Assembly (NCBI GenBank): GCA_001914695.1
Contig: MNCZ01000028.1
Span: 1-57,952 of the forward strand
DNA length: 57,952 nt
Reading direction: 5' to 3'
DNA from: Gammaproteobacteria bacterium 13_2_20CM_66_19
GTDB lineage: Bacteria > Pseudomonadota > Gammaproteobacteria > Steroidobacterales > Steroidobacteraceae
In this document: piece after piece, positions 1,889 through 14,537 of the stretch
Numbering within the stretch: position 1 is the first letter of the stretch
Layout of the letters: each line of letters begins with the position of its first letter
Notes under the pieces: generated by a model
Told to the model about the DNA's origin: nothing
Seen by the model: only the letters and a program-made list of their open reading frames with translations
Database searches by the model: none
Translations under genes and position numbers: made by a program

Positions 1889-1899
1889 ACTGTTGATTA

Positions 1900-2022
1900 C
1901 TCATCGAGACCGGCTGAGGGATAGGCCCTTAGACGCCGGGGCAACCGCCAGGCCTAACCAACCTGGAAAGGTGCCAACTCCTGCGACGCGCGCCCCGCGA
2001 GGGTCGAACGTCTACAGATGAG
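1900..2022 (+). promoter_or_regulatory. SAM-I (S-box type) riboswitch aptamer upstream of metX-metB
   Basis: The segment opens with CTCATC (1900-1905) and closes with GATGAG (2017-2022), a perfect 6-bp P1 helix. Inside are S-box core blocks in the right order: GAGACCGGCTGAGGGA (1905-1920), GGGGCAACC, then AGGTGCCAACTCC near 1969-1981, followed by a GC-rich P4-like stem. It sits directly before homoserine acyltransferase and cystathionine gamma-synthase genes, which is the expected target. High SAM should repress the downstream genes. A SAM-I element at the met operon of Xanthomonas campestris is established knowledge. Tertiary pseudoknot pairing was not modelled. Confidence 0.9.
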
Positions 2023-2041
2023 CGGTCAGCGTGGCCCACGG

Positions 2042-2058: not shown

Positions 2059-2155
2059 ATGAGTGGGAATGGACGCGACAGGCCCGCCTAGTCCTTGGGC
2101 GGGCGCGCTCCGCGGGAGGCCGGTGAGACTGTGCCACCCGGATGCGGAGCATCGG

Positions 2156-3259
2156 ATGAACCTCTCGGTCGAATCGGTCCCAATAATCACCCCGCGGCTG
2201 CCCTCCGTGCGGCCGCCCGCGCCTGCCGAGCCTCCTGGGCCGGACGCCTCGAGGGCGTACCCGGTGCGCGAAGGCGTGCTCGCGATGCCGGCCGTCTTTC
2301 CGCTCGAGCACGGCGGGGAACTGCGCGATGCGCGGCTCGCCTGGCGCCTGGTCGGCGCCGCCGGGGCGCCGGTGGTGTGCGCGCTGGGTGGCATCTCCGC
2401 CAACCGCGAGGTCTGCCTCGCCAGCGATCCGCGCAACGGCTGGTGGTCGGAGATCGTGGGTCCCGGAGGTGCCCTCGACACCGACGAGTACCAGGTCCTC
2501 GGCTTCGACTACCTCGGCGGGAGCGGGGACTCCACGGGCCCGGAGCCCGGCGCCGCGGGTCCGACCGCGGAGCGCGGAGTCTTCCCCAGCCTCTCCAGCT
2601 ACGATCAGGCGGAGGCGCTCGCGCAGCTTCTCGATCACCTCGGCCTGGCATCGCTCGCTGCCATCGCCGGCGGGTCCTACGGCGGCATGGTGGGGCTCGC
2701 CTTCGCCGAGCGCTATCCGGAGCGGGTCGCGCGGCTGATCGTCATCGGTGCGCCGGATCGCAGTCATCCGCTCGCAACCGCCTGGCGCAGCGTCCAGCGG
2801 CGCATCGTGAGTCTCGCCGCCGCGTGCGGTCAGGCACAGGAGGGCCTGAAGGTCGCGCGCGCGCTCGCGATGACGACCTACCGGAGCGCGGCGGAGCTCG
2901 CGGCGCGCTTTGGCGGGACCGCCTCCCGCGACGGGCAGCGCTTTGTCTTCCCCGTCGAGGAGTACCTCTTCGCGCGCGGCTGCGACTACGCGACGCGCCA
3001 CCGCGCGGAGTCATTTCTCACTCTGTCGGAGTCCATCGATCTGCACCGCGTGGATGCCTCGCGCGTGTTCGTCCCCACGACGGTGGTGGCGGTCCGCGAG
3101 GATCAGCTGGTGCCGCTCGAGGACCTGCGGGCGCTCGCGGCCCGCTTGCCGCATGGGCGGCTGCACGAGATTTCCTCCATCTACGGTCATGACGCCTTCC
3201 TCAAGGAGTCGTATCAGCTGCGCGGCATATTCCGCGCGGCGCTCGGGAGCCCCAAATGA
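2156..3259 (+). CDS. metX: Homoserine O-acyltransferase, MetX-type alpha/beta hydrolase
   Basis: Activates homoserine by acetyl or succinyl transfer in methionine synthesis. Using ATG 2156 (367 aa), GGAG at 2146-2149 gives a good ribosome site six bases upstream; an in-frame GTG at 2063 exists but would start only just beyond the riboswitch hairpin. The catalytic triad is visible: nucleophile Ser174 in GGSYGGM, Asp316 in VREDQLVP and His345 in YGHDAFL. The block GWWSEIVGPGGALDTDEY is the MetX signature region. It overlaps metB by four bases. Succinyl versus acetyl specificity cannot be read with confidence, though related gamma-proteobacterial enzymes often use succinyl-CoA. Alternative start: ATG 2285. 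Confidence 0.88.
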   Translation: MNLSVESVPIITPRLPSVRPPAPAEPPGPDASRAYPVREGVLAMPAVFPLEHGGELRDARLAWRLVGAAGAPVVCALGGISANREVCLASDPRNGWWSEIVGPGGALDTDEYQVLGFDYLGGSGDSTGPEPGAAGPTAERGVFPSLSSYDQAEALAQLLDHLGLASLAAIAGGSYGGMVGLAFAERYPERVARLIVIGAPDRSHPLATAWRSVQRRIVSLAAACGQAQEGLKVARALAMTTYRSAAELAARFGGTASRDGQRFVFPVEEYLFARGCDYATRHRAESFLTLSESIDLHRVDASRVFVPTTVVAVREDQLVPLEDLRALAARLPHGRLHEISSIYGHDAFLKESYQLRGIFRAALGSPK

Positions 3260-4500
3260 GCCAGAGGTCCGTTTCAGTCACGCCGCTGCAGGGCGCGGCC
3301 AACACCGGCGCCAGCCAGGTCACGCAGACGGTGCGCGCCGGCATCGAGTGCGGGGATGCGACCGGGTGCGTCGTGCCGCCGCTGCACCTCACCGCGACGT
3401 TCGCGTTCCGCGGCTTCGCCGAGAAGCGTGCCTACGACTACACGCGCTCCGGGAACCCGACGCGCGACCTCCTCGGCGAGGCCCTCGCCGAGCTCGAGCA
3501 GGGGGCGGGCGCGGTGGTGACCGCGAGCGGCATGGCCGCGATCACGGTCGTCGGCTATCTGCTTCCCTGCGGCGGCCGGATCGTCGCTCCGCACGACTGC
3601 TACGGGGGCACCTACCGGCTCTTCGACGCCTGGCGCCGCCGCGGTGAGCGCGAGGTCGAGTTCGTCGATTTTGCCGATGAGGCGGCGCTCTCCGCCGCGC
3701 TCTCGAAGCCCACGGCGCTGCTGTGGATCGAGACCCCGAGCAACCCGCTGCTGCGCATCACCGACATCGCCGCGGTCGCGCGCGCGGGTAAGGCCTGCGG
3801 GGCGCTGATCGCGGTGGACAACACCTTCCTCTCGCCCGCCTGGCAGCAGCCGCTCGCGCTTGGCGCAGACCTCGTAGTGCATTCGACCACCAAGTACCTG
3901 AACGGCCACAGCGACGTGGTCGGCGGCGCGGTGGTGGCGCGCGAGCGGTCGCTCCACGAGCAGCTCGCCTGGTGGGCGAATTGCCTCGGGCTGACCGGCG
4001 CTCCGTTCGACAGTTACCTGACGCTGCGGGGACTGCGGACGCTGCACGCGCGCCTCGACCACCATGGGCGCAACGCCCAGGCCCTCGCCGAGTGGCTGCA
4101 GGGCGAGCCGAACGTGAGACGCGTGTGGTACCCGGGCCTCGCCACGCATCCGGGGCACGAGGTGGCACGGCGCCAGCAGCGCGGATTCGGCGCCATCGTG
4201 ACGCTCGAGCTCGAGGGCGGGCACGATGCCGTGCGGGAGTTCGTGGGCGGACTCACGTGCTTCTCGCTGGCCGAGTCGCTCGGCGGGGTGGAGAGCCTGG
4301 TGTCGCATCCGGCCACCATGACCCATGCGGCGATGGATCCGGAAGCGCGCGAGAAGGCCGGCCTCGCGGACGGTCTCATCCGCCTCTCGGTGGGAATCGA
4401 GGCGCTCGAGGATCTGCGCGAGGACCTCGCGCGGGCGCTCGAGCGCGCGGCGCGTGTGCTCCCCCCTCGCGAGCTCAGCCGGGCCGCTGCAGGCGGCTGA
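3256..4500 (+). CDS. metB: Cystathionine gamma-synthase / Cys-Met metabolism PLP enzyme
   Basis: PLP enzyme of 414 aa, predicted to join activated homoserine with cysteine to form cystathionine. Family marks include YDYTRSGNPTRDLLGEALAELE near residue 55-75, TASGMAAI, the DNTF motif that contacts PLP, and the Schiff-base Lys213 in HSTTKYLNGHSD. The end has SLGGVESLVSHPATMTH and LIRLSVGIE. The ATG overlaps the metX stop (ATGA), so the two are translationally coupled and both under the SAM riboswitch. The last 26 bases overlap the convergent leuB gene. Cystathionine gamma-lyase or O-acylhomoserine sulfhydrylase are close relatives, but the metX context favours MetB. Confidence 0.88.
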   Translation: MSQRSVSVTPLQGAANTGASQVTQTVRAGIECGDATGCVVPPLHLTATFAFRGFAEKRAYDYTRSGNPTRDLLGEALAELEQGAGAVVTASGMAAITVVGYLLPCGGRIVAPHDCYGGTYRLFDAWRRRGEREVEFVDFADEAALSAALSKPTALLWIETPSNPLLRITDIAAVARAGKACGALIAVDNTFLSPAWQQPLALGADLVVHSTTKYLNGHSDVVGGAVVARERSLHEQLAWWANCLGLTGAPFDSYLTLRGLRTLHARLDHHGRNAQALAEWLQGEPNVRRVWYPGLATHPGHEVARRQQRGFGAIVTLELEGGHDAVREFVGGLTCFSLAESLGGVESLVSHPATMTHAAMDPEAREKAGLADGLIRLSVGIEALEDLREDLARALERAARVLPPRELSRAAAGG

Positions 4501-5545
4501 TCACGGCGTCCCCGACCTCGCGCGTCGCGAGCGCCCGCACGTGGGCGAGCGCGATGTCGGGGGTGCGCGCGCCGTCGGCGAGCGCGCCGGCCACCGCGCG
4601 CTCGAGCGCCGCGGCCTCGGCCGGGAGCTGCAACGAGTGTCGCAGCAGCATGGCGGCGCTCAGGATGGCGCCGTAGGGGTTGGCGATGCCGCGGCCGGCG
4701 ATGTCGGGCGCCGAGCCGTGGATCGGCTCGTAGATGCCGAGGCGACCTTCGCCGAGCGATGCCGAGGGGAGGAGCCCGAGCGACCCGGCGAGCATCGCCG
4801 CCTCGTCGGTGAGGATGTCGCCGAACATGTTCTCGGTGACCAGCACGTCGAAGTCCCGCGGCCGCCGGATGAGGTGCATCGCGGCCGAGTCGACCAGCAT
4901 GTGCTCGAGCGCCACCTCGGGGAATTCGGCCGCCACCACGCGCGCGCTCACCTCGCGCCACAGCCGCGAGGTCTCGAGCACGTTCGACTTGTCGATCGAG
5001 GTGAGCCGCCGGCGGCGCGTCTGCGCGAGCCGCGCGGCGACCCGCGTGATGCGCTCGACCTCGGCGACCGTGTAGGTGCAGACGTCCGTGGCGCGGTCGG
5101 CGTCGCGGCTGTGGTCGCCGAAGTAGATCCCCCCGGTCAGCTCGCGCACGAACACCAGGTCCACGCCCTGGATCACCTCGGGCTTCAGCGTCGAGGCGTC
5201 GGCGAGCGCGGGGTGCACCTTCACGGGCCGGAGGTTCGCGAACGCCCCGAGCGACTGACGCAGCCGCAGAAGTCCCTGCTCGGGGCGGAGCCGCTGCCCG
5301 GGGTCCGACCACTTCGGTCCCCCCACCGCACCCAGGAGCACCGCGTCCGAGGTGAGGCACGCGCGCAGCGTCCGGTCGGGGAGCGGATCACCCTCGGCAT
5401 CGATGGCCGCCCCGCCGAAGGCGAGCTCCGTGACCTCGAGCTCGTGCCCGTAGAGCTGCGCCACCCGGCCAAGACAGCGCAGCGCCTCGGCGATCACCTC
5501 CGGTCCGATCCCGTCGCCCGCGAGCACCGCCAACCGGGCCTTCAT
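4475..5545 (-). CDS. leuB: 3-isopropylmalate dehydrogenase
   Basis: Oxidatively decarboxylates 3-isopropylmalate with NAD+ in leucine synthesis. The 356-aa product starts with [13 protein letters not shown], has the substrate-specific loop [13 protein letters not shown] and [15 protein letters not shown], the catalytic Tyr in [10 protein letters not shown], the Lys in [15 protein letters not shown], and Mg-binding Asp residues in [16 protein letters not shown]. It ends with the NAD-site block [18 protein letters not shown]. The ATG at 5545 overlaps the leuD stop by four bases. It is the last gene of the ilvC-leu operon, and its 3' end runs 26 bases into metB on the opposite strand. Confidence 0.96.
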
Positions 5546-6114
5546 GCGCGGCGCTCGTACGCCTCGATTTCCTCGCTCCGCTCGAGGAGGAACGCGAGCT
5601 CGTCGACGCCGCGCAGCAGGCAATGCCGGGCGAAAGCCTCGAGCGGGAAGGTGACGATGCGGCCGCCGGGGAGAGCGAGCGTGCGCGCCGCGACATCGAG
5701 CGTGAGCTCCGCGCCCGGGTGGGCGAGGAGCCAGCCGCCGACCGTCTCGTCGACGGTCACCGGCAACAGGCCGTTCTTGAGCGCGTTGCTGCGAAAGATG
5801 TCGGCGATCTCGGTGCTGATCACGGCGCGGAGCCCTGAGTCGGCGAGCGCCCAGGCGGCGTGCTCGCGGGATGAGCCGCAGCCGAAGTTGCCTCCGGCGA
5901 CGAGGATCCGGCAACCCTCGGCCTCCGGACGGTTGAGCGCGAAGTCGGTCCGCCGACTCCCGTCGGGAGCGTAGCGCCAATCGGCGAACAGGTGCCGGCC
6001 GAGACCCGAGCGCGTGGTGGTGGTGAGAAAGCGCGCCGGGATGATCTGGTCGGTGTCGATGTTGGCCGCCGGCAGCACCACGGTGCGCGAGGTGAGCGTC
6101 GTGAAGGGTTCCAT
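5542..6114 (-). CDS. leuD: 3-isopropylmalate dehydratase small subunit
   Basis: Small swivel subunit of isopropylmalate isomerase, partner of LeuC. 190 aa, normal length. Family motifs are [13 protein letters not shown] near residue 18-30, [17 protein letters not shown] near 73-90 and the end region [25 protein letters not shown] ribosome site precedes the ATG. It lies 25 bases after leuC and overlaps leuB by ATGA, as expected for a tightly coupled leuCDB block. Confidence 0.97.
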
Positions 6115-6139: not shown

Positions 6140-7546
6140 CTACATCAGCTCGCGTGGATCGGTGACCCGGCCGCGCACCGCACAGGCCGCGGCGGTGAGG
6201 GGGCTCGCGAGGAGGGTGCGTGCGCCGCTTCCCTGGCGGCCTTCGAAATTGCGATTGCTGGTGCTCACGCAGTACTCGCCGCGCCCGACCACATCGCCGT
6301 TCATGCCGAGACACATGGAGCAGCCCGATTCGCGCCACTCCGCGCCCGCTTCGAGGAACACCCGATCGAGGCCTTCCGCCTCCGCCTGACGCTTGACCTG
6401 CTGGGAGCCGGGCACCACGAGCATCCTGAGGCCCGGGGCAATCCGCCGTCCGCGCAGCACGCCGGCGGCGCTGCGCAGGTCCGAGAGCCGCGCATTGGTG
6501 CAGCTGCCGATGAAGACGACGTTCACTTTCCGGTCCCGGATCGGCTCGCCGGGCGCGAGGCCCATGTAGGCGAGCGCCCGGGCGAAGGCGGCATCTCCCG
6601 GCCGCTCGGGGATCGCCTCGCCGATCGCAATGACCATGCCGGGATTGGTGCCGTAGGTGATCATCGGCTCGACGCCGGCAGCATCGATGTCGATCTCACG
6701 ATCGAAGCGGGCGCCGGCATCGGTGGGGAGCCGCCGCCACTCCTCGAGCGCGCGCTCCCGGGCTTCGCCCCGCGGGGCGCGCGGGCGGCCGGCGAGATAG
6801 TCGAAGGTCGTCTCGTCGGGCGCCACCATGCCGGCCCGCGCGCCGGCCTCGATCGACATGTTGCAGACGGTCATGCGCTCGTCCATATCGAGCGCGCGGA
6901 TGGCGTCTCCCCGGTACTCGATCACGTGGCCGGTGCCGCCCCCGACACCGAGCCGGCCGATGATCGCGAGAATGAGGTCCTTCGCCGTCACGCCCGCGCG
7001 CGGCGCTCCCGTCACGTTGACTGCGAGCGTGCGCGGCCGGCGCTGCAGCAGGCATTGGGTCGCCAGCACGTGCCCGACCTCGGTGGTGCCGATCCCGAAA
7101 GCCAGCGCCCCGAAGGCGCCGTGGGTGCTCGTGTGGCTGTCGCCGCACACGACCGTCATGCCCGGCTGCGTGAGCCCGAGCTCGGGCCCGATGATGTGCA
7201 CGATGCCGCGCTGGCGGTGGGTGAGGCCGAGCAGCTCGATGCCGAACCCGGCGCAGTTGACTTCGAGCTCCTCGATCTGTCGCCGGGCGGCTTCGAGCGC
7301 GATCGGCAGGCCGCCGAACACCTGGCTCGTGAGGGTCGGCGTCGAATGGTCCATGGTCGCGAGCGTGCGCTCGGGCCGCCGCACCCTCAAGCCCCGCTCG
7401 CGCAGCAGCGCGAACGCCTGCGGCGAAGTGACCTCGTGGACGAGGTGCAGGTCGACATAGAGCAGCGCGGGCGTGTCGGCGGTCTCGCCGCTCACCACGT
7501 GACGCTGCCACACCTTGTCGAAGAGGGTCTGGGGAGAGCGCGCCAT
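6140..7546 (-). CDS. leuC: 3-isopropylmalate dehydratase large subunit
   Basis: Catalytic Fe-S subunit that, with LeuD, isomerises 2- to 3-isopropylmalate. ATG 7546 gives 468 aa beginning [18 protein letters not shown], the standard LeuC start; the open frame extends 19 codons further upstream but those residues do not match the family. Signatures include [42 protein letters not shown], and the three cluster cysteines in [12 protein letters not shown] and [10 protein letters not shown]. The spacing from ilvE is 19 bases, and no strong ribosome site is visible before the ATG, so coupling to ilvE translation is likely. Confidence 0.97.
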
Positions 7547-7565: not shown

Positions 7566-8525
7566 TCAGCCGGAGGCGGCGACCCGCGGCGCCGACATGT
7601 CAACGTAGTCGAGCCAGCCCCACTGGTCGGGCGTCTTGCCCGAGAACAGGCCGAAGAACGCGTTCTGCAGCGTCTCGGTCACGGGTCCCCGCTTGCCGGC
7701 GCCGATCGGCAGCCGGTCGACCGAGCGAATGGCGGTGATCTCCACCGCAGTGCCGGTGAAGAAAGCCTCGTCCGCGAGGTAGAGAAGCTCGCGCGGAATG
7801 GCGCACTCGCGCACCTCGAGGCCGCGCTCGCGGGCGAGCCGCATCACGGTGTCGCGCGTCAAGCCCCCGAGCACCGAATGCGCGAGCGCCGGCGTCAGCA
7901 GCACCCCGTCCTTCACCAGGAACAAATTCTCGCCCGAGCCCTCACTCAGCGTGCCGTCGGGGGCGAGCCCGATGCCCTCGGCGAAACCGAGCCGCCGCGC
8001 CTCCGCGCCGATCAGCTGGCTCGAGAGGTAGTTGCCGGCGGCTTTGGCGAGCGCCGGGAGTGTGTTCGGGGCCACGCGCTGCCACGACGAGACGCAGGCG
8101 TCGACGCCGAGGTCCTCGCCCTCGTGAGCGAGGTACTTGCCCCATTCCCAGGCCGCGATCGCCACCTCCGTCGGCGGCTCGACCTTGGGCGTCACCCCGA
8201 TCTCGCCGTAGCCCCGGAAGACGACCGGCCGGATGTAGGCGCCGCGCTTCAAGGCGTTCGCCGAGATCACCTGACGGCAGGCCTCGTTGATGGCTTCCGC
8301 GGAGAAGGGGATGTTGATGCGATAGATCTTCGCCGAATCGAACAGCCGCCGGGTGTGATCGCGGAGCCGGAAGATGGCCAGCCCGCGCGGGGTCTCGTAG
8401 GCGCGTACACCCTCGAATACCGAGGAGCCGTAGTGCAGCGCGTGCGCCAGCACGTGCACCGTGGCCTTCTCCCAGGGCACGAGCTTGCCGTTGAACCAGA
8501 TGAACTGCGTGGCGGGAATGGGCAT
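7566..8525 (-). CDS. ilvE: Branched-chain amino acid aminotransferase
   Basis: Transaminates the keto acids of leucine, isoleucine and valine with glutamate. 319 aa, fold-type IV PLP enzyme. The N-terminus [31 protein letters not shown] is characteristic, the PLP Lys161 lies in ALAKAAGNY, and [13 protein letters not shown] and [12 protein letters not shown] follow. AAGGAG sits just upstream of the ATG, making the start firm. It lies between leuA and leuC in the operon, so the final leucine step is encoded within the same transcript as its committed step. Confidence 0.96.
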
Positions 8526-8552: not shown

Positions 8553-10118
8553 TCAGGCGGGCGCCGCGGCGCTGCGCTCCTCGCGCGGGCGGGTTCCGGC
8601 CTGCGCCAGCTCGATGCGGTTGATCACTTCGAGGAACGCGCGCGTGCCGGACTCCACGATGTTCGTGCTCACGCTCGCGCCTCGATAGGTCTTGTGATTG
8701 TACTCCACGTACACCCGCGCCTCGCCCTGGGCATCCTCGCCCTCGGAAACGGCGTGCACCTCGAACTTGCGCAGCACGACCGCGATGCCGGTCGCCGCCT
8801 CGATCGCCTTGAAGGCCGCATCCACCGGCCCGTCGCCGGTAGCACTCTTCTCGACGCTGCGGCCGTCGGCGTGACAGAGCCGCACCAGCGCGCGCGCCGG
8901 AGTGTTGCTGCGCGCCTCGGTGGCGAGCTCGGTGAGCGTCCAGGGACCGCTGGCTGAAGCCCCCGCGCGCAGCACCAGCGCCTCGATGTCCCCGTCGAAC
9001 AGCTCCTTCTTCTTGTCCGCCAGCGCTTTGAACTCCTCGAACACGCGGTTGAGCTCGAGCTCATCGAGCTCGAACCCCAGCGCGCTGACCCGCTCGCGAA
9101 AGGCGTGCCGGCCGCTGTGCTTGCCGAGCACCAGGTGGCTGCGCGACAGCCCGACATCCTCGGGCCGCAGGATCTCGTAGGTCGAGTGGTGCCGGAGCAT
9201 GCCGTGCTGGTGAATGCCGCTCTCGTGCGCGAAGGCGTTCTCGCCCACCACCGCCTTGTTGCGCGGGATCGGCATCCCGGTGATGCTCGAGACGAGCCGC
9301 GAGGTGGGATAGAGGCGGCTGGTGTGAATGCCGGTGCTCACGTTGAAGAACGCCGCGCGCGTCTTCAGCGCCATCACCACCTCTTCCAGCGAGCAGTTCC
9401 CGGCGCGCTCGCCGATGCCGTTGATGGTGCACTCGATCTGCCGCGCGCCGGCGACCACCGCGGTCAGGCTGTTGGCGACCGCCATGCCGAGGTCGTCGTG
9501 GCAGTGCACCGAGAGGCGCACCGTGTCGATGCCGCGGACGTTCTTGCGCAGGTAGCGGAACAGCTCCGCGAACTCATCCGGGACGGTGTAGCCGACGGTG
9601 TCCGGGATATTCACCGTGGTCGCGCCGGCGCCGATCGCCGCCTCGATCACCTGGGCGAGGAACTCGAGCTCGGTGCGCGAGGCGTCCTCGGGGGAGAACT
9701 CCACGTCGTCGCAGAGCTCGCGCGCGCGTGCGACGCCCGCCGCGGCGAGGCGCAGGATCTCGTCCTGAGCCATGTTGAGCTTGTACTGGCGGTGAATGGC
9801 GCTGGTGGCGAGGAACACGTGGATGCGGTGCCGGGGCGCCGCAGCGAGCGCGCGCGCGGCGAGCTCGATGTCCTCGAAATTGCAGCGCGCCAGTGCGCAG
9901 ATGCTCGGCCCCGGCACCTCGCGCGCCACGGCCTCGACGCTCTCGAAGTCGCCGCGCGAGGCGGCCGGGAAGCCCGCCTCGATGACGTCCACGCCGAGCT
10001 CGGCGAGGGCGCGGGCGACCCGCAGCTTCTCGGGTCGCGTCATGCTGCAGCCGGGGGACTGCTCGCCGTCGCGCAGCGTCGTGTCGAAGATCAGGACTTG
10101 GTCGGGATTGGCAACCAT
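8553..10118 (-). CDS. leuA: 2-isopropylmalate synthase
   Basis: Committed step of leucine synthesis: acetyl-CoA plus 2-ketoisovalerate. 521 aa, the long form. Motifs include FDTTLRDGEQSPGCSM, VIEAGFPAAS, the metal-binding pair in LSVHCHDDLGMAVANSLTAV, NGIGERAGNCSLEEVVMAL and ENAFAHESGIHQHGM. The last 130 residues form the LeuA regulatory domain (around ARVYVEYNHKTYRGASVSTNIVESGTRAFLEVIN), normally the leucine feedback site, so enzyme inhibition probably adds to the transcriptional attenuation. GAGGAA precedes the ATG. It is 27 bases downstream of ilvE's upstream boundary and 30 bases after ilvC. Confidence 0.97.
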   Translation of the reverse strand: MVANPDQVLIFDTTLRDGEQSPGCSMTRPEKLRVARALAELGVDVIEAGFPAASRGDFESVEAVAREVPGPSICALARCNFEDIELAARALAAAPRHRIHVFLATSAIHRQYKLNMAQDEILRLAAAGVARARELCDDVEFSPEDASRTELEFLAQVIEAAIGAGATTVNIPDTVGYTVPDEFAELFRYLRKNVRGIDTVRLSVHCHDDLGMAVANSLTAVVAGARQIECTINGIGERAGNCSLEEVVMALKTRAAFFNVSTGIHTSRLYPTSRLVSSITGMPIPRNKAVVGENAFAHESGIHQHGMLRHHSTYEILRPEDVGLSRSHLVLGKHSGRHAFRERVSALGFELDELELNRVFEEFKALADKKKELFDGDIEALVLRAGASASGPWTLTELATEARSNTPARALVRLCHADGRSVEKSATGDGPVDAAFKAIEAATGIAVVLRKFEVHAVSEGEDAQGEARVYVEYNHKTYRGASVSTNIVESGTRAFLEVINRIELAQAGTRPREERSAAAPA

Positions 10119-10148: not shown

Positions 10149-11144
10149 TCAGGCCCGCTTTTCATTGAGCCAGGGCATGCGCGCGCGCAGCGCCGCGCCG
10201 ACTTTCTCGATCTGACGGTCGACGTCCTCGTCGAGGAGTCGCTGGTAGTTGGCCCGCCCCGCAGCGTTCTCGCGGATCCACTGGCGCGCGAACTTGCCGC
10301 TCTGCACTTCCTTCAGCACCTTGCGCATCTCGTTCTTCACCCGCTCGTTGACGATGCGCGGTCCGCGGGTGAGATCGCCGTACTTGGCGGTCTCGCTGAT
10401 GAACTGGTGCATCTTGGCGAGCCCGCCCTCGTGCAGGAGATCGACGATCAGCTTCAGCTCGTGCAGGCACTCGTAGTAGGCGACTTCCGGCTGATAGCCG
10501 GCCTCGACGAGCGTCTCGAACCCCTTGACCACGAGCTCGGTGGCGCCGCCACAAAGCACCGCCTGCTCGCCGAAGAGATCCGTCTCCGTCTCCTCGGCGA
10601 AGGTGGTCTCGAGCACCCCGCCGCGTGTGCCGCCGATCGCGTGCGCATAGGCGAGGGCACGGGCGTGCGCCTTGCCGCTCGGATCCTGGGCGACGGCGAG
10701 CAGGCAGGGCACGCCGCGACCTTGGCTGTACTGGCGGCGCACGAGGTCCCCCGGGCCCTTGGGAGCGATGAGGACTACGTCGAGGTCCGCGCGCGGCTTG
10801 ATCTGCCGGAAATGGATGTTGAAGCCGTGTGCGAAGAGGAGCGTCGCGCCCTTCCCGAGGTGCTTCTTCACGGAGTCGTAGAGCGCCTTCTGCGCCAGAT
10901 CCGGCACCAGCATGGCGACGAGATCCGCGCCCTGGACGGCATCAGCGGGCTCGGCGGTCTCGAGGCCGTCGCGGCGGGCCTTCTTCCAGCTCGGTCCGCC
11001 CTTGCGGACACCGACCACGACGTCGCAGCCCGAGTCCTTCAGGTTCAGGGCATGCGCGCGTCCCTGGCTGCCGTAGCCGAGCACGGCGATCCGGGCGCGT
11101 TTCAGCGCCTTGCGGTCGACGTCTTTCTGTGAATACAACCTCAT
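10149..11144 (-). CDS. ilvC: Ketol-acid reductoisomerase (class I)
   Basis: NADPH-dependent isomeroreduction of acetolactate or acetohydroxybutyrate. 331 aa, class I length. It has the Rossmann block [21 protein letters not shown] near residue 18-38, [13 protein letters not shown], and the metal-binding helices around [13 protein letters not shown] and [26 protein letters not shown] precedes the ATG. It is the first structural gene after the leucine leader and attenuator. Acetolactate synthase genes, often found beside ilvC, are not in this window. Confidence 0.97.
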
Positions 11145-11185: not shown

Positions 11186-11220
11186 AAAAAACCCCGCATC
11201 GGCTCATCGCCGGTGCGGGG
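11186..11220 (-). terminator. Intrinsic terminator of the leucine attenuator
   Basis: On the minus strand a CCCCGCA/TGCGGGG stem (7 bp), one mismatch, then CGGC/GCCG with a GATGA loop (11192-11220) is followed at once by six T (11186-11191). It ends about 42 bases before the ilvC ATG, between the leader peptide and the first enzyme gene. That is the position of a transcription attenuator rather than an end-of-operon terminator. Confidence 0.9.
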
Positions 11221-11350
11221 TTTAAGATCTCTTGCTTCGCTCGTGCCTGGAATTTCGTCAGGCGTTCGCGCATGCCCCGCACCGCTCGCTCCCGCTAAGG
11301 AGCAGCAGCCGGGGCAGGGCCAGCAGCAGCGGCCGGAGCGCGGTGCGGAG
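11192..11350 (-). promoter_or_regulatory. Leucine attenuator: four mutually pairing RNA segments
   Basis: Reading along the mRNA: segment 1 is CTCCGCACCG (11350-11341, inside leader codons 14-17), segment 2 is CGGTGCGGGG (11284-11275, leader codons 36-39), segment 3 is CCCCGCACCG (11220-11211), segment 4 is CCGATGCGGGG (11202-11192) plus a T-run. Segment 2 is the exact 10-base complement of segment 3 and also pairs with segment 1 with one G-U. Segments 3 and 4 form the terminator. Leucine codons lie in and just after segment 1, so a ribosome starved of charged tRNA-Leu would mask segment 1, allow 2:3 pairing and prevent termination. The mechanism is inferred from the pairings. Confidence 0.85.
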
Positions 11351-11389
11351 CGCTGCGCGGTCAGGGGCCGATGTTGCGTTGGGCGTCAT
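11258..11389 (-). CDS. leuL: Leucine operon leader peptide (43 aa)
   Basis: An ATG-started 43-residue frame with ten leucines at positions 14, 18, 21-23, 25 and 28-31, including a CTG-CTG-CTG run and a CTG-CTG-CTC-CTT run. It ends 113 bases before the ilvC ATG, with the terminator between. It overlaps no other called gene. The N-terminal 13 residues have no leucine and the last 12 carry two cysteines. It acts as a translated sensor of leucyl-tRNA, not as a functional protein. It has no clear ribosome site. The symbol leuL is used by analogy with enterobacterial leaders. Confidence 0.88.
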   Translation of the reverse strand: MTPNATSAPDRAALRTALRPLLLALPRLLLLSGSERCGACANA

Positions 11390-11416
11390 GGATGCGAACG
11401 AAAGCCTGGTCAGCCG

Positions 11417-11446
11417 ATGTCAGCACAAGGACCGTCGGCTTGTCAA
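11417..11446 (-). promoter_or_regulatory. Candidate sigma70 promoter for leuL-ilvC-leu operon
   Basis: On the minus strand a perfect -35 TTGACA (11446-11441) is separated by 18 bases from TGACAT (11422-11417), a weak -10 preceded by TGTGC, which may act as an extended -10. Transcription would start about 20 bases upstream of the leader ATG. The perfect -35 and the position support it; the -10 is poor. Confidence 0.6.
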
Positions 11447-11511
11447 CGCGACTCGCGCTTCCCGCACCCGGCGCTGTTCGGGGCGTCCGCGCGGCGATTA
11501 AGCTTGCGCGC

Positions 11512-12801
11512 GTGTCCGCCGGCCGTACCGTCAAACCGAGCGCGCTCGCGGAAGGCATGTACCGCCGCGAGATTCTCCCCTGGGGGCTGCTCGGACTTGC
11601 GCTCGGGCTGGTCGAAGGGGCGACGGCGGCGGTGCTCGTCAAGCGGCACTTCGCCGGCGTCGCGCCACGCTTCGTGGTCAATCTCGCCGTGGCGCTGGTG
11701 TCGGGCGCCCCGGCCTTCTCCAACGTGCTCTCCTTCGTGTGGGCCAACGTCGCGCACGGGCGCGCGCGCGTGCGGCTGATGGTAGCGCTCCAGGGCACGT
11801 TCGCACTGTTCGTCGGCTGCGTGGCCTTCGCCTCGCACGCGGCCGCGGGACTGGTGATCACCGTGCTCTCCATCGTGGCGGCGCGGGTGCTGTGGGGGGG
11901 CATTCTGACGGTGCGCGCGGCGGTGTGGACCGCGAACTATCCGCGTAACGTCCTGGCGCGCATCACCGGGCGCATCGCCATCGTGAATGCGATCGCGGTG
12001 GCGACCTCGGCGGCGCTCGTCGGGTGGGTGCTCGAGGCGCAGGCCATCGATGCGCGCTGGCTTTATGGCGCGGGCGCTGCGGCGGGCCTCACCGGCGCGT
12101 GGCTCTACCGCTCGATGCGCGTGCGGCGGGAGTTCCGGCTGCTGGCGGCCGAGGCGGCGAGCGGCGCGCGCAGCGACCCCTTCAGCCTGCGCATGCTGAT
12201 GGAGATCCTCCGGGAGGATCCCTCGTACCGCGAGTACATGCTGTGGATGGGCATCTTCGGCGCGGGAAATCTCATCCTCACCGCGCAGCTGGTGCTGGTG
12301 TTCTCCGAGCAGCTGCACCTCTCGAGCGCCACGCAGATCGGGCTGCTCGCGGTCGTGCCGCTCATCACGCAGCCACTCTTCATGCCCTGGTGGGCGCGGC
12401 TGTTCGACGGGTCGCATGTGGTGCGCTATCGCTCCCGGCAGGGCTGGGCGATCGTGCTCGCGACCGCCGCCATGTGCGCCGGGGTGTTCAGCGGGACGCT
12501 CCCGCTCCTGTGGGTCGGGGCGGTCCTGCTCGGCGCCGCCCAGGCGGGCGCCAATCTTGGCTGGAATCTCGGTCACAATGACTTCGCCTCGATCGGCCGC
12601 GCGCAGCACTATATGGGCGTGCATGTCACGCTCACGGGGGTGCGCGGCGGCCTGGCGCCACCAATCGGCGTGCTCGCCTACATGGCACTCGAGGGGTGGC
12701 ACCGCGGCGCCGGAGAGTTCGCGCTGCTGCTGCCGCTCGCCATGACGGCCGCCGGCGCCCTCGGCTTCAAGCGGATGCAAGGCGCGCTCGCCGATGCCTG
12801 A
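11512..12801 (+). CDS. Major facilitator superfamily transporter
   Basis: An integral membrane protein of about 430 aa with 11-12 hydrophobic segments (for example [102 protein letters not shown]). The central charged loop ([32 protein letters not shown]) separates two halves as in MFS carriers. The start is uncertain: GTG 512 bases into the 11000s block (11512) or ATG 11557, whose GGAAGG lies too close to be a good ribosome site. An earlier GTG-type start would overlap the leu promoter. It sits between the leu leader and ilvD and ends 35 bases before ilvD. A branched-chain metabolite substrate is only a guess from location. Confidence 0.75.
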
Positions 12802-12836
12802 GAATTGGCCGATGCATGAAGACGAGGGTCCAGCCG

Positions 12837-14537
12837 ATGAAAAAGAGCATTGATCCGCGCGGGTACTCGCGAATCGTGATGGACGGCGCCAGGCAGGCCC
12901 CCTCGCGCGCCATGCTCCGGGCGGTCGGGTTCCGGGACGAGGACTTCGGCCGGCCGCAGATCGGCGTGGCCTCGACCTGGGGAAACGTCACGCCCTGCAA
13001 CATGCACATCGGCGATCTGGCCCGCGAGGCGTCCGTCGGCGTCGACGGCGCCGGGGGCAAGAGCGTGCTGTTCAACACCATCACGGTCTCCGACGGCATC
13101 TCCATGGGCACGCCGGGGATGCGCTACTCGCTCGTCTCGCGCGAGCTCATCGCGGATTCGATCGAGGCTGTCGCAGGAGCGGCAGGCTTCGACGGTTTCG
13201 TCGCGCTCGGCGGCTGCGACAAGAACATGCCCGGCTGCGCGATGGCCATGGCGCGGCTCAACCGTCCGGCGGTGTTCGTCTACGGCGGAACGATCCGCCC
13301 CGGCGCCGAGCGCCGGGACATCATCTCGGTCTTCGAGGCGGTCGGCGCCAACGCTGCGGGGAAGCTCTCGGATGCCGGCCTGCTCGAGATCGAGCGCACG
13401 GCCATCCCCGGGCCCGGCAGCTGCGGGGGAATGTACACGGCGAACACCATGGCCTCCGCCATCGAGGCCCTGGGCTTGTCCTTGCCGGGCAGCTCCGCCC
13501 AGGAGGCCGTCGGGGAGGAAAAGCGCAGGGACTGCCGCCGGGCGGGGGAGGCCGTCGTTGGCCTTGTACGCAGCGGCTTGAAGCCGCGCGACATTCTCAC
13601 CCGGCAGGCGTTCGAGAACGCCATTACGGTGGTGATCGCGCTCGGGGGCTCGACGAATGCAGTGCTGCACCTGCTGGCCATCGCGCATGAGGCGCGCGTT
13701 CGGCTCGACCTCGACGACTTCACCCGGATCGGTCGGCGCGTGCCGGTGCTCGCGGATCTCAAGCCGAGCGGCCGCTACCTCATGTCCGAGCTGATCGCGA
13801 TCGGCGGCATCCAGCCGCTCATGAAGATGCTGCTCGCAGCAGGGCTCCTGCATCCGGACTGCCTCACGGTCACCGGTCATACACTGCGGGAGAATCTCGA
13901 AAACGTTCCCATGTACATGAGCGGACAGGACATTGTGCGCCCACTGTCGAACCCGCTGAAGAAGGACAGTCACCTCGTGGTCCTCTACGGGAACCTCGCG
14001 CCCGAGGGCGCGGTGGCGAAGATCACCGGCAAGGAAGGTGAGCGCTTCGCCGGAAGGGCGCGGGTGTTCGAGGGCGAGGAGCGCGCGACGCAGGCGATCC
14101 TCGGTGGCCGGGTACGCGCGGGGGACGTGGTGGTGATCCGACGGGAGGGCCCGCGCGGGGGACCCGGCATGCGCGAGATGCTGAGCCCGACCAGCGCCAT
14201 CACGGGACGCGGCCTCGGAGCGCAGGTGGCCCTCATCACGGACGGGCGTTTCTCCGGGGGCAGTCACGGCTTCGTCGTGGGGCATGTCTCCCCGGAGGCG
14301 GCCGTCGGCGGACCGATCGCGCTGCTTCGCCACGGCGACCGGATCCGTATCGACGCCGCGAGAAGGGAGCTGCACGTGGAGCTGCCCGCCGCGGAGCTGC
14401 GGCGGCGGCGCGCCGCCTGGCGGCCGCCGAAGCCCTACGCGCAAAGCGGCGTGCTCGCGAAGTACGCGCAGCTCGTCGGAAGCGCCTCGCGGGGAGCGGT
14501 GACTGAGACGATACAGCCACGTCGGCGCCACTCTTAA
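12837..14537 (+). CDS. ilvD: Dihydroxy-acid dehydratase
   Basis: Fe-S dehydratase giving 2-ketoisovalerate and 2-keto-3-methylvalerate, the step after IlvC. ATG 12837 ([12 protein letters not shown]) gives 566 aa; GAGG lies about nine bases upstream, and a second ATG at 12816 is possible. Cluster cysteines are Cys54 (TPCNMH), Cys127 ([10 protein letters not shown], with Cys134 next) and Cys196 ([14 protein letters not shown]). The end has [21 protein letters not shown]. It is divergent from the ilvC-leu operon and outside its attenuator, so it is probably controlled separately, perhaps with the MFS gene in front. Confidence 0.95.

Follow-up and report, generated by a model that had tools for sequence, protein, structure and literature searches.

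A probable leucine attenuator upstream of ilvC-leuA-ilvE-leuCDB in a Steroidobacteraceae genome

Several leader-controlled branched-chain amino acid operons have been described, and they differ in the codons, the RNA structures and the genes that are involved. The E. coli leuL leader (Rfam RF00512) encodes 28 amino acids and has five leucine codons, including a run of four that is followed by a stop codon and a terminator, with leuA as the next gene; Ile and Val codons are present outside the run. The E. coli ilvL leader contains mixed Leu, Val and Ile codons and precedes ilvX and ilvG as annotated. In S. aureus, leucine-dependent attenuation of the ilv-leu operon has been proposed for the ilvD leader in a study by Kaiser et al. 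(2018, PMC5794164) that included leader and terminator mutations. As summarized in the same article, the B. subtilis ilv-leu operon is controlled by a tRNA-Leu T-box (PMC5794164). Here we describe a leader located ahead of an operon in which ilvC is the first gene. The reading that we favor, with a probability of roughly 0.9, is that charged tRNA-Leu controls ilvC-leuA-ilvE-leuCDB through ribosome-mediated transcription attenuation.

The window, meaning the whole stretch of DNA that was analysed, is 57,952 nucleotides long. The genes of the operon are on its minus strand, where family matches identify ilvC (ketol-acid reductoisomerase, 10149..11144), leuA (2-isopropylmalate synthase, 8553..10118), ilvE (branched-chain transaminase, 7566..8525), leuC (6140..7534) and leuB (4475..5536), the starts of leuC and leuB being approximate. 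The leuD gene (5542..6114) is an open reading frame that was assigned from its position and from its own matches in relatives, which are located between leuC and leuB. An MFS transporter frame and ilvD (12900-14507) occupy 11371-14507 on the plus strand, divergent from the leader. The longest MFS frame overlaps the leader in antisense, therefore the start of the MFS gene is probably further in, near 11551. A SAM riboswitch (1898-2024, plus strand, 71.3 bits) lies before a metX-like gene (2063-3259) and a gene for a Cys/Met PLP enzyme (3256-4500), and this pair and the leu operon are convergent. Another contig carries the best ilvB of the genome. In the approximately 600 nt 5' of that gene no convincing attenuator was seen: T-tailed hairpins there are weak or lie far away, and a 22-codon frame that contains Leu and Ile codons, MILHHGSKLLGSLVLPTSRIIL, has no good terminator after it.

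The leader element is on the minus strand, like the operon. It begins with a perfect -35 box, TTGACA (11441..11446), as an earlier sequence-only reading had noticed. A possible extended -10, TGC-TGACAT (hexamer 11417..11422), follows at a spacing of 18 nt, and a pattern like TGTGCTnnnATC recurs in variable form in relatives. The RNA would then start near 11410. The leader frame (11258..11389) has 43 codons and encodes MTPNATSAPDRAALRTALRPLLLALPRLLLLSGSERCGACANA, with ten Leu, no Ile and no Val; no clear Shine-Dalgarno sequence or ribosome binding site was seen ahead of its ATG. The leucines include a run of three at codons 21-23 (11321..11329) and a run of four at codons 28-31 (CTG CTG CTC CTT, 11297..11308), in agreement with the frame and the runs that had been reported at first. 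The second run is also the 5' arm of a recurring hairpin of the 1:2 type (11282..11308), and a small hairpin at the stop codon, GCCTG...CAGGC, is found at 11245..11263.

Four complementary segments had been claimed, and the complementarity is borne out. Segment 1, GCTCCGCACCGC (11340..11351), pairs with segment 2, CGGTGCGGGG (11275..11284), over 12 nt including one G-U pair in ribosome-free RNA of the window species. Segments 2 and 3 form 10 exact pairs. Segment 3, CCCCGCACCGGC (11209..11220), is the 5' arm of the terminator and pairs at 11 of 12 positions with the 3' arm, segment 4, GCCGATGCGGGG (11192..11203). The antiterminator (2:3) and the terminator (3:4) share segment 3 and are mutually exclusive. 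The terminator hairpin has an energy of about -24 kcal/mol, is followed by a T6 tail (11186..11191) and is located 41 nt 5' of the ilvC ATG. The T6-tailed terminator had thus been recognized correctly, but the interval originally given for the element, 11192..11446, misses the T run, which ends at 11186.

The element was then followed in relatives. The closest named relatives, among the matches listed, are metagenome assemblies labelled Gammaproteobacteria, Proteobacteria or Steroidobacteraceae. Thirty-seven genomes of the same genus were drawn, including the genome that carries the window, and an ilvC match was obtained in 33 of them, of which the best 30 were fetched; those left out comprise four without an ilvC match and three in which the match was partial or divergent. 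The element is present in all 30 same-genus loci fetched. An alignment, referred to as A1, was made from these loci and 4 further relatives and has 34 rows, 33 of them distinct. Its rows were picked for having segments 2 and 3, therefore the 30/30 count is the freer test. An ilvC identity of 80% or more is reached by 37 distinct loci, and A1 contains 34 of them. The three outside it are L006, where the anchor was misplaced and which carries a Leu-rich leader, a terminator and a 2:3 pairing of -23.5 kcal/mol, L016, where segment 2 was missed by the pattern and 2:3 is weaker (-14.3 kcal/mol), and L020, where the terminator was not found.

All 34 leaders in A1 have a Leu-weighted frame, and in all of them a distance of 18 nt separates the GGGG of segment 2 from the stop codon that follows it; in L097 the stop is TAA and the frame is kept. 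The window leader is the only one of the 34 that lacks Ile and Val alike. Runs of at least three leucines occur in 29 of the 34 and are absent in L083, L092, L094, L098 and L100, and pairs of leucines occur in every leader. The TTGACA box is present in 33/34, L090 having TGTACA in its place. For the 2:3 pairing 92.4% of the cells of A1 are paired, compared with 33-48% when the segments are slid, and for 3:4 the values are 99.7% and 35-53%. Covariation in A1 is nil for segments 2-4 because these segments are nearly invariant. The hairpin at the stop codon is paired in 85.5% of the cells and shows weak covariation. RNAalifold applied to A1 supported the terminator, with little covariation; the stop hairpin is absent from its output.

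Outside the genus, the 2:3 pairing is kept with both sides changed in L130, which precedes a distant ilvC (CGAGGTGCGGGG with CCCCGCACCTCG), in L131, which precedes asnB (CGATGCGGG with CCCGCATCG), and in L142, which precedes leuA (GGGTGCGG with CCGCACCC). In some other families that have a leader and a terminator it is weak and interrupted (L047, -10.9; L052, -11.7; L039, -12.1 kcal/mol). A separate observation concerns L023, L024 and L028, where no such leader was seen 5' of ilvC; a common block, TTGCATCATAAGAGATTCTGTGnTGCTATT, stands there before a different T-tailed hairpin and may be a promoter or operator. It had been proposed that relatives should share the leucine runs and the four segments. 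The frame, the leucine weighting, segments 2-4 and the stop codon do recur and the runs do so in most leaders, but segment 1 is not conserved.

The arrangement of these parts suggests how the leader would work. RNA polymerase would start near the position given above and a ribosome would begin the 43-codon frame. When Leu-tRNA is sufficient, the ribosome would pass both leucine runs and cover segment 2 while segment 3 emerges, the 3:4 hairpin would fold, and transcription would end at the T6 tail. When Leu-tRNA is scarce, the ribosome would stall at a Leu codon within the stretch of codons 21-31, where it would mask segment 1 and, on the later codons, an arm of the Leu-codon hairpin. Segment 4 would not yet have been transcribed when segment 2 pairs with segment 3, and polymerase would continue into the operon. 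A ribosome on the stop codon would, judging from the spacing, cover just the end of segment 2. We infer promoter use, leader translation, stalling, its timing and termination from this layout.

A folding model in which only the RNA 3' of the ribosome is folded, with segment 4 not yet present, shows a switch that depends on ribosome position. For the window leader the probability of the 2:3 pairing, P(2:3), is at most 0.19 at codons 1-20, 0.86-0.99 at codons 21-31, 0.67 at codon 32 and 0.23 at codon 33, so the switch falls at the first leucine run. When segment 4 is present, the equilibrium fold of the full RNA contains the terminator wherever the ribosome was placed; antitermination must therefore be kinetic and co-transcriptional. 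The two alternative structures that had been predicted from the sequence are thus obtained in part: 2:3 is formed on codons 21-31 before segment 4 exists, but the complete RNA always folds into the terminator. The E. coli leaders were scanned as controls with a looser measure. P(2:3) for leuL is about 0.8 on Leu 10-13, near 0 just after them and 0.4-0.5 later, and for ilvL it is about 0.7 on the Val codons and near 0 just after. By this measure the window leader is back to 0.5 on codons 39-43. In both controls P(2:3) is already 0.5-0.8 ahead of the control codons; their support is therefore better for the drop that follows these codons than for the increase that precedes them. Together with the conserved 2:3 / 3:4 switch, the position of the model switch at the first leucine run supports the original proposal of leucine attenuation for this operon.

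The role of segment 1 is less general than had been supposed. In ribosome-free RNA of the window species segment 1 captures segment 2, with a pairing of about 0.95, and P(2:3) without a ribosome is 0.00 because of it; the masking that had been proposed is consistent with this. Among the 34 leaders of A1, however, P(2:3) exceeds 0.5 without a ribosome in 26, as estimated by folding truncated RNA at equilibrium, with a start site that was inferred and is misplaced for L102. The automatic search for segment 1 in relatives gave scattered answers, and a general role for it was rejected. A hairpin that uses the last Leu codons does fold in all 34 leaders. In the window leader the fraction of synonymous recodings at or below the native energy is 0.010, and across A1 this fraction is at most 0.05 in 18 of 34 leaders with a median of 0.048. 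The hairpin is thus more stable than most synonymous recodings, and the Leu codons seem to double as an RNA arm.

These results raise the alternative that the attenuator is the same but its default state differs among species. Most of the genus would have no protector able to hold segment 2, the ribosome-free RNA would be 'on', and termination would need a ribosome that crosses segment 2, while the window species would be 'off' by default by means of its private segment 1. The difference between the 26 leaders that favor 2:3 and the window leader, in which the protecting 1:2 hairpin is strong, points in this direction, as does the Leu-codon hairpin, which leaves a large part of segment 2 unpaired in most relatives. 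The comparison depends, however, on the equilibrium folding described above, which ignores co-transcriptional folding and pausing. E. coli ilvL is also 'free' at 0.73 by a similar measure (leuL, 0.28), therefore the model may overcall the ribosome-free 'on' state. We regard this alternative as a real possibility, although we lean against it.

With attenuation by charged tRNA-Leu as the favored reading, the codons of the leaders can be compared with the genes that follow. For the leucine share, the number of Leu residues was divided by the total of Leu, Ile and Val over the 28 C-terminal residues of each leader. The rows are related genomes and the leader starts were chosen by the author, so the following values describe a pattern and are not an independent test: the median share is 0.73 for the A1 leaders (n=34, before ilvC-leuA), 0.75 (range 0.50-0.90) for 16 other ilvC-leuA leaders and 0.50 (0.23-0.67) for 18 leaders before ilvD-first or ilvC-ilvB operons. 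Further ilvC-ilvB leaders agree (L034, 0.50; L043, 0.60; L068, which is without a terminator, 0.43). Six ilvC-leuA loci are outside the comparison, the leader being unread in L008, L011, L015, L040 and L047 and no terminator being found in L020, whose share is 0.90. Two Steroidobacter loci, L025 and L026, have ilvC-ilvE-leuCDB without an adjacent leuA, and their leaders are Val-rich (IVVVERVVVSGLL; shares of 0.21-0.23). Two leaders that precede leuA alone have mixed codons and go against a simple rule (L129, 0.46; L142, 0.50). The comparison suggests that among relatives codon choice follows operon content. Control of ilvC by leucine codons alone had been called unusual, and this was overstated: leucine-weighted leaders are the rule among the readable ilvC-leuA relatives. 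Precedent exists as well, according to the account in PMC5794164, in the tRNA-Leu T-box of B. subtilis, where a single amino acid, leucine, likewise controls an ilv-leu operon, and in the Leu-rich attenuator of S. aureus.

A covariance model of the leader element, R1, was used to search more widely. With an E cutoff of 1, the genome of the window yields five matches: the leader site, the strand opposite to it and three that are weak. With a cutoff of 0.01, R1 matched 38 of 369 genomes of the class (own genome included) and, in one further family, 35 of 60 genomes, counts in which plain terminators are also matched, several of the class-level matches not being attenuators. The 28 loci taken from the further family comprise 15 before ilvD, 1 before ilvC-ilvB, 8 before asnB with Asn-rich leaders and 4 others. 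The matches are compatible with one scaffold that has been retuned by codon swaps. In a fuller form of this idea, an old gammaproteobacterial scaffold consisting of segments 2-3-4 with a CCCCGC / GCGGGG stem would have been repeatedly retuned by swaps of the control codons, with Leu before ilvC-leuA, Val before ilvC-ilvE, Leu/Val/Ile before ilvD and Asn before asnB, most of the genus being 'on' when ribosome-free and the window species having a private protector. This form is speculative, and we consider it rather unlikely to hold in all its parts.

Other candidate attenuators were encountered among these loci. Ten loci before asnB (asparagine synthase) share the attenuator layout and have Asn-rich leaders such as SNANGRNNALANNRARPMR (L157, L158, L159, L160, L164, L167, L171 and L174, and also L131 and L134), and may represent an asparagine attenuator; no title or abstract beginning on an asparagine attenuator of asnB was found in the literature searched. 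In L124 a leader with Met and Cys codons, LHMCMCCMLMHVRV, has an antiterminator and a terminator and is a candidate Met/Cys attenuator; the downstream gene encodes a Cys/Met-type PLP enzyme that by eye looks like O-acetylhomoserine sulfhydrylase. The leader TLTLLVVIIITSAGCG of L133 precedes a gene that by eye is MFS-transporter-like and is a candidate branched-chain attenuator on a transporter. A near-identical R1 match stands before one further gene in two genomes (L166 and L170).

The families with other codons also bear on the proposal that the leader is an arrest peptide, in which the nascent chain and not a shortage of Leu-tRNA would stall the ribosome in response to a small molecule. An RCG tail common to 31 of the 34 leaders is what such a peptide might show. 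This tail is encoded by segment 2, however, and RNA pairing explains its conservation, while from family to family the leader residues vary with the content of the operon, Asn runs being found before asnB; the proposal is very improbable. A constitutive terminator or insulator beside a chance Leu-rich frame in G+C-rich DNA, where the terminator is strong and leucine is common in frames, is more improbable still, as an ATG frame with two runs of at least three Leu arose in 1 of 1000 dinucleotide shuffles of the region and the antiterminator and fixed stop position are found in each of the 30 same-genus loci.

The terminator too is uncommon in such controls. A T5-tailed fold below -18 kcal/mol arose in 7 of 1000 dinucleotide shuffles of the region, and the folding energy has a z-score of -3.4 against shuffles. 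Scanning both strands of the whole window for T5 with a single hairpin of -15 kcal/mol or better returned two terminators, and only the one before ilvC has a 10-nt antiterminator and an ORF with Leu runs.

The leader had been described as uncatalogued, which is true for the libraries that were searched. At the leader site every Rfam family stays below its threshold (for the Leu_leader model, RF00512, the score is 14.9 bits where 50 would be needed), and the leader peptide is not matched by any model in Pfam or NCBIfam. The B. subtilis ilv-leu T-box binds tRNA directly and is not known to use a leader peptide. No Rfam T-box model was among the permissive matches, and the only model to reach threshold in the window is that of the SAM riboswitch (RF00162), at its separate site; the Rfam search thus rules out a T-box or a known Rfam leader here. 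No title or abstract beginning that describes this leader was found in the literature searched, and no claim of a first description is made.

The attenuator family is well supported, is absent from Rfam and belongs to a little-studied group of Gammaproteobacteria. Leucine is predicted to be the sole gate of the one ilvC copy found in the genome, which is 82.6% complete, and excess leucine could therefore limit the synthesis of valine and isoleucine. Codon choice that tracks operon content would be a natural experiment in regulatory evolution.

The window leader can now be placed among the known systems. The S. aureus ilvD attenuator, as it is presented in PMC5794164, differs in having a 26-aa peptide that also contains three Ile codons, a sequence unlike that of the window leader and a proposed antiterminator that uses the poly-U tail. 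Like E. coli leuL, the window leader has a four-Leu run, a stop codon and a terminator; it is longer, with 43 residues and ten Leu codons, it has no counterpart of the Ile and Val codons of leuL, and its operon is headed by ilvC. The likeness to E. coli ilvL is in the RNA. The tail of ilvL, PPCGAALGRGKA, resembles the RCGACANA of the leaders described here, its terminator, CCCCCGCACC / GGTCCGGGGG, resembles segments 3/4, and its ribosome scan drops after the control codons as in the window leader. The ilvL scan differs in that P(2:3) is high already at the first codons and also without a ribosome, and the control codons of the window leader are Leu only with ilvC first. From these comparisons the window leader appears to resemble ilvL in its RNA and leuL in its codons. 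The mechanism is the classical one, and what is new here is the details of the leader.
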